In this document: positions 56,542 to 59,645 of the stretch, piece by piece | How positions within the stretch are numbered: the first letter of the stretch is position 1 | Layout: each line of letters opens with the position of its first letter | DNA from: Qipengyuania oceanensis | Lineage (GTDB): Bacteria > Pseudomonadota > Alphaproteobacteria > Sphingomonadales > Sphingomonadaceae | Direction of reading: 5' to 3' | DNA length: 64,000 nucleotides | Assembly (NCBI RefSeq): GCF_009827535.1 | Contig: NZ_WTYN01000001.1 | Coordinates: forward strand, 992,001-1,056,000 | Translations under genes and position numbers: made by a program | The notes under the pieces: model-generated | What the model was told of the DNA's origin: nothing | The model's database searches: none | What the model saw: the letters and a program-made list of their open reading frames with translations, nothing else

Positions 56542-57083
56542 TCGACGACCTCTGCGACCCGGGCGACGAGGGGAGTGGCTTCACCGAAGGCGCGCGCGAA
56601 ATCATCGGCGGCAGACGCCTTGATCTCCATCTGCCCCGGCTTCTTTGCCGAAGGCGATTGCACGCGGTCGGCCTGGGCGACGCGCTGGCCGCTGATGGGC
56701 GAAACCATTGCATCCAGCGCTTCCGGCGAAGGCGCGGCGTCGGGTGCACGCGCCACGCGGATCGGCGAGGGGGCGTTCATCCCGCGCGGCGCGCCGAGGC
56801 TGGCGAGCTGGCGCACTCCGGAAATATACTGGTCGGCGCGCGGGGCCTTGTAGCCGAATTCGATCGCGTTCCAGTCGGCAAGCTGCTGCTGGTTCGCGCG
56901 CGCCTGGAATTCGGTTTCGAGCAGCAGTTTCTCGCGTTCGAGCTGGACGATCTGCCGCTCGGCGAGGCGCACCTCGCTCTTCACCGAGTTGACTTGGAAG
57001 GTGAGCGCGATGAAGCAACCGAAGCTGATGCTCAGCGCAAACAGCCAGCCGATCTGGCGCAGCCGGGATCCGCGCGACATCAT
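56538..57083 (-). CDS. FtsL-like division protein
   Basis: A 181-residue bitopic protein between rsmH and ftsI, the standard ftsL place. A short basic N-terminus is followed by one membrane helix (about 12-31). Then comes a coiled-coil ([26 protein letters not shown], about 34-59) with heptad leucines, as in FtsL, which pairs with FtsB. A proline/alanine-rich tail of about 100 residues is longer than in E. coli FtsL. Sequence identity in this family is low, so the name rests mainly on topology and position. Confidence 0.88.
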
Positions 57084-58018
57084 GCGGCAAGCTCCCGTGC
57101 GGGGGCGCCGGTGCGGACCGCGTGACGCAGGACCGCCGAGCGCGAGCGCGGGTTGCGCGCGATCTCGGCCTCGGTGGCTCGGACGGCCTTCGATACTTTC
57201 GTGAAAACCGCCGGGTCGTTCGCCACCACGGGCAAGTGGCGCGAACCGCCGGTGCTGGCGGATGCCTCTCGCAGGAAGCGCTTGACGATCCGGTCCTCGA
57301 GGCTGTGAAAGCTGACCACCGCGAGCTTGCCGCCCTCCCCCAGCAGCTGCTCGGCACCGGAAAGCCCCTCGCGCAGTTCGTCGAGCTCGCCGTTCACGTG
57401 GATGCGGATCGCCTGGAAGGTGCGGGTCGCCGGGTCCTTCTTGTCATGCGGCTTGTGGCCCAGCGCCCGGCGCACGATGCCAGCCAGTTCGCCAGTCGTC
57501 TCCAGCGGCCGCGCGGCGACGATGGCGCGCGCGACGCGGCGGGACTGGCGCTCCTCGCCATAGGTATAGAGCACGTCGGCGATCGCATCGGCATCCGCCG
57601 AGTTCAGGAAATCTGCCGCGCTGGTGCCATCCTGGCTCATCCGCATGTCGAGCGGGCCGTCGAGCGAAAAGGCGAAACCGCGCTCCGCCTGGTCGAGCTG
57701 CATGGAAGAAACCCCGATATCCATCACCACGCCGTCGACGCGGGACAATCCCGATTCGGCGAGCGCGTTAACCATTTCGGAGAATCGGCGCGGATGGAGA
57801 ATGAGGCGCGGCGGGTTTTCCCCCGTCTCGCGCCACGTGCGACCCGAGGCAATTGCGTCGGGGTCTCTATCGAACGCGTGGACAGTCGCACCTGCATCGA
57901 GCAGGGCGCGCGTATATCCACCCGCGCCGAATGTCGCATCGACGATGACGTCGCCGGGCCGTGGGGCCAGCGCGGCGATCACCTCGTCGAGGAGAACGGG
58001 GATGTGGGGAGCGTTCAC
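57080..58018 (-). CDS. rsmH: 16S rRNA (cytosine-1402-N4)-methyltransferase
   Basis: A 312-residue SAM-dependent enzyme modifying the ribosomal P-site. The start GTG 58018 overlaps the mraZ stop (GTGA); [13 protein letters not shown] follows at once. [15 protein letters not shown] is the SAM loop, [16 protein letters not shown] and PLDMRM are family motifs, and [15 protein letters not shown] near the C-terminus is the RsmH signature. It couples with ftsL by an ATGA overlap. Confidence 0.97.
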
Positions 58019-58509
58019 TTGCGCTTCCCCTTGGCTTCGGCCTCGGCCGTGAGACTGGCGCAGGCCGCCTGCGCGGCGGCCCATTCGGGACCCATCGCCT
58101 GCAACCTGGCAGGATTCCAGATCGTGAAAAACCGGCCCGCGCCCTGGAAATACAGCCCACCGTCGTCGATCCCGGCCAGATCGCGCAGGTGGTCGGGCAG
58201 GACGAAGCGGCCGCTGTCGTCGAAGGGAAGCTCGACGAAGCCGAACAGGTGCATGGCGCGCAGGTCGCGATCGAATTCAGCCTGCATGCGGATCGCGCGC
58301 TCTTCCTCGCGGTCAAGCTGCTCGTCGAGTTCGTTCTTGCGGGAGAGGCCGAAACCGGTGAGGCAATCCCAGCGATCGTGCTTGGCGAGACACAGGACCC
58401 GGCCGTCGCTCGATTCCTTGACCGCCTTGCGGAAGAGCGGGGGCAGCGTGAAGCGGCCCTTGTCGCCCGAGGGCGAAAAGGCCTGACCGCTATATCCTCC
58501 GAAAGACAC
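58015..58509 (-). CDS. mraZ: MraZ transcriptional regulator of the dcw cluster
   Basis: A 164-residue protein with two SpoVT/AbrB-like MraZ domains: [15 protein letters not shown] near residue 17 and [16 protein letters not shown] near 100, each with the DxxGR core. The start is set at GTG 58509; a GTG three codons earlier is also possible. MraZ represses the mra promoter in E. coli by binding repeated TGGG-type boxes (known). The array at 58656-58710 upstream fits autoregulation. A basic C-terminal tail (EAKGKRK) follows. Confidence 0.93.
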
Positions 58510-58655
58510 TCCCGACACCTCGCCCCATCCCCTGTTTGGGCCGCATTTGCCGGACACAGCTTCCCCGCCGCCGCCCGCGCATGTTGACGGGAGGCCTGGC
58601 TCGCTTTCGCGAAGCCGGGCAGGAACACTCTGTCCGATGGAATATCTTGTTAACT

Positions 58656-58710
58656 CGGGAACTTCCGGGATGGAAGGGAAAATTGCGGGATTTCACGGGA
58701 AAACTCGGTA
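58656..58710 (+). promoter_or_regulatory. Candidate MraZ-box array: GGGA repeats at about 10-bp spacing
   Basis: CGGGA occurs at 58656-58660, 58666-58670, 58686-58690 and 58696-58700, with AGGGA at 58675-58679 (one base out of phase) and CGGTA at 58706-58710. Spacing of 10 bp puts all on one DNA face. E. coli MraZ binds three TGGGN repeats separated by 5 bp, the same period. These read on the strand opposite to mraZ transcription. Binding here is inference. Confidence 0.65.
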
Positions 58711-58726
58711 AATGTATGATTTACCG
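58706..58726. promoter_or_regulatory. Perfect 8-bp inverted repeat (operator-like) ahead of mraZ
   Basis: CGGTAAAT (58706-58713) and ATTTACCG (58719-58726) are exact reverse complements with a 5-bp spacer. The left arm includes the last, weaker element of the GGGA array. A dimeric regulator is the likely reader, but no cognate protein is identified. A small RNA hairpin is also possible if transcribed. Confidence 0.6.
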
Positions 58727-58826: not shown

Positions 58827-59645
58827 TCATTCCCGCGATTTCCCCGTTTTGCCCCGACTCGACTCGAAAGCCCGAACGACCAGCACGTCCAGTCCAGCGG
58901 TGCGTCCGCCTTCCTTCTCGCCGTTCTCGATCAGCGTCGCGTCTGCGACGATCAGCGCACGCCCGGCCCCGATGGCGCAATCCGCGACCAGGCCATCGGC
59001 AAGCAGCGCGCAGTCCGAAGGTTCGCCCCCGGCCGGTGCGCGCTTCACGAAATGCCCGGCAAGGCTGACCGGTATCGTGGCTTCGCCCAGCGAAACCGTC
59101 CGGATGCCGTCCGGCTGGTCCTCGTCGAACAGCAGTTCAAGGCCCCAGCGCGCGAGGATCGGCGAGATGAGCACCACGTCCTGCGGCCTGCGCCGGTCCC
59201 CGATATGGAAGCGTGATTCGGCCGAAAGATAGGGATCGGCGAACATCAGCAGTCGCCCGCCGTCCCGCACCCAGGCATCGAGCTCGACATTTTCCGCACC
59301 CGAGAGCGCGCGCGGTTGCGCGAGGATCGCCCGGTCCATTTCGGCAAGGCCGCGATCGCCATCGAGCGTGTCGAGCGGCACGAGCCGATAGTCACTTTCC
59401 AGTGCGGTGCGGACCCAGTGTGTTGCGGCGGCACCGGACAGCATCTCGTTCACGTCGGCGACTTCGCCCCAATAGATGGGCAGCGTGGCGAACAGGCCGA
59501 GTTGCGGCTTGCGCGCCTCCTCGGACACGACATCCACTTGCCCGTCCTCGACCTGGCCGAACATCCCGCCCGACCACCAGAGTGCACTTGCAAGAAGCGC
59601 GGCCAGCAGGGCCATCACGAGCGCCCTACTGCGCGGGAACGGCAT
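58827..59645 (-). CDS. Membrane-anchored protein of unknown function (DUF4350/GldG-like)
   Basis: A 272-residue protein with an N-terminal signal-anchor helix (about 8-27) and a periplasmic body. LPIYWGEVADVNEML near residue 55 and DAWVRDGGRLLMFADP near 125 resemble the GldG/DUF4350 fold, which is related to glutamine-amidotransferase-like sugar-binding domains, but this is a weak by-eye match. The C-terminal part includes IGAGRALIVADATLIENG, also of that type. The start at 59645 overlaps the next upstream gene (59626-59988) by 20 bp, so the two form one transcription unit. Confidence 0.75.
   Translation of the reverse strand: MPFPRSRALVMALLAALLASALWWSGGMFGQVEDGQVDVVSEEARKPQLGLFATLPIYWGEVADVNEMLSGAAATHWVRTALESDYRLVPLDTLDGDRGLAEMDRAILAQPRALSGAENVELDAWVRDGGRLLMFADPYLSAESRFHIGDRRRPQDVVLISPILARWGLELLFDEDQPDGIRTVSLGEATIPVSLAGHFVKRAPAGGEPSDCALLADGLVADCAIGAGRALIVADATLIENGEKEGGRTAGLDVLVVRAFESSRGKTGKSRE

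Follow-up and report, generated by a model that had tools for sequence, protein, structure and literature searches.

Upstream of mraZ in the sphingomonad Qipengyuania oceanensis lies an array of GGGA elements with a 10-bp rhythm. The array is a real, conserved regulatory element. On comparative evidence it is very probably the MraZ operator, inverted as in Alphaproteobacteria generally and, in the sphingomonad manner, recoded and shifted. MraZ is among the most conserved bacterial transcription factors; to our knowledge, the sites that it binds are established for a few species only. The array belongs to a stretch of 64,000 nucleotides (the window), in which a reading made from the sequence alone had suggested a likely MraZ operator. 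This suggestion is supported by the conservation of the array, which is missing from loci without mraZ and in each genome lies at the mraZ promoter.

The array, its promoter and the mraZ locus

The array precedes mraZ, which heads the dcw cluster. rsmH overlaps the mraZ stop by 4 bases. The gene upstream of mraZ is co-directional and terminates at 58827, which leaves mraZ as the only gene that the array serves.

58827-59645, minus strand: gene upstream of mraZ, uncharacterised; ABC_transp_aux scores 33.5 bits, below its cut-off of 34.7
58015..58509, minus strand: mraZ, 164 codons; GTG start predicted from relatives; Pfam MraZ over cut-off
57080..58018, minus strand: rsmH (mraW), next gene of the dcw cluster; TIGR00006 over cut-off; start read from the sequence

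A longer in-frame GTG occurs at 58557, and relatives favour the GTG at 58509 (V-S-F-G-G-Y-S). The encoded protein is a divergent MraZ: it scores 25.7 bits against the Pfam MraZ model (PF02381 / UPF0040; cut-off 23) and matches the NCBIfam MraZ models significantly, yet below their equivalog cut-offs. The second of its DxxGR-type motifs is intact (D-D-S-G-R), while the first reads G-D-K-G-R, with Asp replaced by Gly. A PDB sequence search with this protein found no relative. A fold search with its AlphaFold2 model (pLDDT 92) succeeded: the top 16 PDB matches were all MraZ (best E 4e-7), with PDB 9sz7 as the best match. Whole-genome searches with PF02381 and TIGR00242 missed the window's own MraZ, for which reason the window protein was used as a query. 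Sphingomonad MraZ may be under-annotated, given scores far below the equivalog cut-offs and these missed matches.

The GGGA elements start at 58656, 58666, 58675, 58686 and 58696, in steps of 10, 9, 11 and 10 bp; in the direction of mraZ transcription (minus strand) the region reads TACCGagtttTCCCGtgaaaTCCCGcaatttTCCCTtccaTCCCGgaagtTCCCGagTTAACaagatattcCATCGGACA, and the TCCC cores follow each other at 10, 11, 9 and 10 bp. Direct reading of the sequence confirms all the coordinates given earlier, namely those of four CGGGA copies (58656, 58666, 58686 and 58696), an AGGGA one base off phase (58675) and a CGGTA (58706). The GGG core of MraZ boxes is present as antisense NGGGA, directly repeated every 10 bp upstream of mraZ. 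GGG is preceded by C, or by A in box 3, and the T of the E. coli type is absent; this T belongs to the E. coli site and is not known to characterise all MraZ operators, and the base differs between relatives in which the array is retained. Positions below are relative to the predicted transcription start, and the counts of TCCC cores refer to 73 relatives whose alignment was anchored on the leader RNA and not on TCCC, which avoids selecting sequences by the motif itself.

58706..58710, minus strand: box 0, a degenerate copy with sense TACCG; conservation weak, in some relatives only
58696..58700, minus strand: box 1, sense TCCCG, about -61; TCCC at -61 in 57/73
58686..58690, minus strand: box 2, sense TCCCG, about -51; TCCC at -51 in 53/73
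58675..58679, minus strand: box 3, sense TCCCT, about -40, 1 base off phase; TCCC at -40/-41 in 59/73
58670..58675, minus strand: predicted -35 position, flanked by boxes 3 and 4, with TTCCAT on the sense strand; TTCCAT in 79/164 aligned relatives at fixed spacing
58666..58670, minus strand: box 4, sense TCCCG, about -31; TCCC at -31 in 56/73
58656..58660, minus strand: box 5, sense TCCCG, about -21; retained by some relatives only
58647..58652, minus strand: predicted -10, sense TAACAA, 17 bp from the -35; TATTAC, TAATAC or TAAATC in relatives
58639..58640, minus strand: predicted transcription start, about 7 bp past the -10, where the conserved CATCGGACA begins

The boxes thus span about -61 to -21, across a putative -35 that matches sigma-70 poorly. 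Further upstream of box 1, an A-rich block is also conserved (window positions about 58717-58722, minus strand; consensus AAA.CA, about -83 to -78, about 1 bit per column).

The array is nearly confined to the mraZ promoter. When chains of GGGA or TCCC cores at steps of 9-11 bp were counted in the window and in 100 dinucleotide shuffles of it, the window held one chain of five, the mraZ array; no second chain of four occurred elsewhere in the window and none in the 100 shuffles, in which chains of three averaged 0.13. A three-box pattern had four matches in the whole genome (2.87 Mb), one of them the mraZ site, and its control one match. In the genomes of 40 relatives, six of the nine matches to a strict three-box pattern were the mraZ site, which gives little sign of a second operator.

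Conservation, orientation and co-occurrence with mraZ

The sequence-only reading had proposed to align mraZ upstream regions of Erythrobacteraceae, with loss of the 10-bp phase in close relatives as the outcome that would count against it. The closest named relatives of the genome are indeed Erythrobacteraceae, and across 130 genomes of the Sphingomonadaceae (about 95 genera) both the GGGA cores and the phase are retained. At least two TCCC cores in phase are found in 121 of the 130 regions, at least three in 88 and at least four in 61; shuffles of the same regions gave 4.4, 0.05 and 0, respectively. In the 73 leader-anchored relatives the cores fall at -61/-51/-40/-31, with a phase coherence of 0.95 at 10 bp. 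The slip of box 3 is a feature of the family, since the steps are either 10-11-9 or 10-10-10 and boxes 2 and 4 always stand 20 bp apart. Four boxes make up the conserved core, and only some relatives also keep the fifth box (58656) and the CGGTA (58706), so that the array does not exceed known operators in length as first thought: the B. cenocepacia and M. genitalium promoters also have four.

The array was further compared with 70 mraZ-containing genomes from other alphaproteobacterial families. The 46 of these with a clear -35 yield the consensus ccaTTGACgCCCATnnnnTCCCATGnTATCCCATnnnnCC, in which TTGAC (-35), 17 bp and TATCCC (-10) lie within a TCCCA array of 10-bp period; the reverse complement of TCCCA is TGGGA, the E. 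coli box. At least two CCC(A/T) cores in phase occur in 61 of the 70 genomes, as against 12 for the sense-orientation motif. This TTGAC-N17-TATCCC promoter is class-wide and carries four or five TCCCA-type boxes at 10-bp steps, with the -10 forming part of a box. In other Proteobacteria, including E. coli (boxes taken from the MG1655 sequence: gtgggaaattgtggggcaaagtggga), recognisable repeats are mostly sense-strand TGGG and are located downstream of the -10. The reversed orientation of the boxes is therefore a class-level trait of the Alphaproteobacteria sampled. Within this class, sphingomonads have C or G, not T, before GGG, and their array spans about -61 to -21, as against about -40 to +1 in the other families. 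Both groups have a box on either side of the -35 position (TTCCAT in sphingomonads, TTGACG in the others), and the sphingomonad -10 is devoid of CCC (TATTAC, TAATAC and similar). The change from T to C or G and the upstream shift of the array are sphingomonad traits.

The earlier proposal of a lineage-specific box stands in part. The orientation opposite to mraZ is real, but it is general in Alphaproteobacteria and not peculiar to this lineage, whereas the C in place of T, a position held by T in most other Alphaproteobacteria, is the sphingomonad-specific part. A literature search, mainly of open-access papers, found no published description of MraZ boxes in Alphaproteobacteria, and the passages found in papers mentioning mraZ in Rhizobium, Sinorhizobium, Caulobacter, agrobacteria and Rhodobacter describe none.

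The occurrence of the array follows that of mraZ. It was found at none of 17 rsmH loci without upstream mraZ and at 49 of the 70 loci with mraZ in other Alphaproteobacteria (Fisher p 6e-8, without correction for relatedness); 13 of the 17 loci come from other alphaproteobacterial families and four from one sphingomonad genus, so that the four sphingomonad losses amount to one genus, and the regions compared may not be homologous where mraZ is missing. The four genomes of this genus, of about 2 Mb each, have no recognisable mraZ. Its place before rsmH is taken by an open frame of 126-133 codons without an MraZ match, and one TCCC is all that is left of the array. In two genomes in which a diverged mraZ persists, two cores in phase are still present.

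The boxes also vary with the putative recognition motif of MraZ. Asp at position 11 (E. coli numbering) of the DxKGR motif is found in all 70 of the other Alphaproteobacteria, while a group of sphingomonads has Gly (motif forms GDKGR, GEKGR and GEKNR). The base after TCCC is A in 129 of 142 boxes of D11 Alphaproteobacteria, in 14 of 53 boxes of D11 sphingomonads and in 3 of 386 boxes of G11 sphingomonads. These counts are suggestive of a link between the T-to-C/G change in the box and the loss of Asp from DxKGR, with only three D11 changes on the tree, too few for a test that takes phylogeny into account to reach significance.

A conserved leader RNA downstream of the array

The region that follows the predicted transcription start contains a structured RNA.

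58549..58639, minus strand: mraZ leader RNA, three-way junction with the closing stem CGGACA/UGUCCG and two hairpins, directly after the predicted start

The leader is estimated at about 130 nt overall, of which about 90 nt are structured. The fold of the window copy (58551-58639) has a z of -4.85 relative to shuffles, and compensatory changes were identified in 15 of 21 pairs in an alignment of 32 sequences. A covariance model of the leader matches the window with 70.6 bits, occurs once in its own genome and is matched by some 90 of the 100 sources searched, almost all of which are Sphingomonadaceae; it had no match in 73 other sources, which included the other Alphaproteobacteria searched. 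In an alignment of 94 matches, fitted to the structure and thus favouring the covariation result, 88% of cells pair and the covariation score is 0.52, compared with 0.26 when shuffled (0/500, on all five measures); the score falls to 0.08-0.16 when partners are slid. No Rfam family matches the leader. Judged by these alignments, the leader RNA is strongly covarying and sphingomonad-specific within the sets searched. The obvious candidates for its role are control of mraZ translation, control of transcription past the leader, or action as an sRNA.

Proposed mode of action and known MraZ systems

We predict with considerable confidence that the array is an MraZ operator to which several MraZ subunits bind, leading to autorepression of mraZ, rsmH and the following genes. 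Each subunit would touch a single GGG/CCC core, all from one side of the DNA, with one box per helical turn, as has been proposed for the MraZ octamer of B. cenocepacia, with one repeat per subunit (PMC7761207). MraZ occupying the array would presumably exclude RNA polymerase and so repress its own operon; blocking of RNA polymerase is most likely because the boxes, at about -61 to -21, span the -35 element. Among the points against an MraZ operator are an orientation and a promoter position unlike those in E. coli.

It is possible, though unlikely, that MraZ binds the array but activates transcription, or acts both ways. Boxes that lie mostly upstream of or on a weak -35 are a layout also known for activators; nonetheless, the -35 and the spacer are overlapped by boxes 3 to 5, the boxes of other Alphaproteobacteria lie over -10/+1, where repression alone is plausible, and MraZ represses its own operon in M. 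genitalium and in E. coli (PMC8475190, which summarises the E. coli work as well). Use of the array by another regulator of the dcw promoter appears improbable. NtrX and CenR bind upstream of Rhodobacter mraZ (PMC7240162, PMC9275681), a CtrA motif has been reported at S. meliloti mraZ (PMC3616915), and some further factor might act there; however, the NtrX site is GCA-N9-TGC (PMC7240162), with no CCC-core array, three to five direct repeats at 10 bp suit an MraZ ring, and the array is missing where mraZ is missing and mostly confined to the mraZ promoter. There is very little to commend the view that phased A/T tracts confer intrinsic curvature or form an UP element with no repressor involved: A/T-rich spacers do alternate with the cores and are moderately conserved, but the CCC cores are the most conserved columns, and in other Alphaproteobacteria the cores are constant while the spacers differ. 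A plus-strand antisense RNA whose GGA motifs sequester an RNA-binding protein is scarcely credible, as the Rfam RsmY match on that strand is far under the cut-off (17.5 bits against 57) and was rejected as an artefact of the GGA repeats, which alone explain it, and strict 10-bp phasing fits DNA recognition from a single side of the double helix.

Taking the array as an MraZ operator, we lean towards a wider scenario in which the operator is inverted in Alphaproteobacteria relative to the other Proteobacteria sampled, and in which sphingomonads recoded the box from TGGGA to CGGGA/GGGGA together with the change from DxKGR to GDKGR, moved the array about two helical turns upstream and gained a structured leader RNA, which would place two layers of control on the division gene cluster. 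A class-wide inverted operator and a joint change of box and recognition motif make it possible to test directly how MraZ recognises its DNA and whether orientation and position count. The sphingomonad division cluster, moreover, gains a defined candidate operator and a new, conserved leader RNA on the same transcript.

The UpsM sRNA of the Rhodobacteraceae mraZ 5' leader (PMC5089854) resembles the leader described here in that it is structured and lies downstream of the dcw promoter, ahead of mraZ, in an alphaproteobacterium. UpsM is 206 nt long and has a Rho-independent terminator (PMC5089854), whereas the window leader is a three-way junction of about 90 nt, with no U-tract terminator after the structure in the window.

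The E. coli MraZ operator, with three TGGGN repeats, shares with the array the GGG core, the 10-bp period and the arrangement as direct repeats before mraZ and near the promoter. Its boxes are sense TGGGA downstream of the -10, while those of the window are sense TCCCG upstream of and over the -35, with C or G for T and one box slipped by 1 base. The B. cenocepacia site (PMC7761207) likewise has a 10-bp period before mraZ, built from four 7-nt repeats with 3-nt spacers, and a fragment containing it was bound by MraZ in EMSA; unlike the window array, it has a GTG-type motif and lies downstream of the -10, over the transcription start. The Mollicutes site, (AAAGTGKN3)n (PMC5282649), also consists of 10-bp direct repeats, with a different core, AAAGTG. 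In the complex of M. genitalium MraZ with four boxes (PDB 9sz7, 9r4j), MraZ is octameric and, at a protein identity of 13-14%, has the same fold as the model of the window protein.
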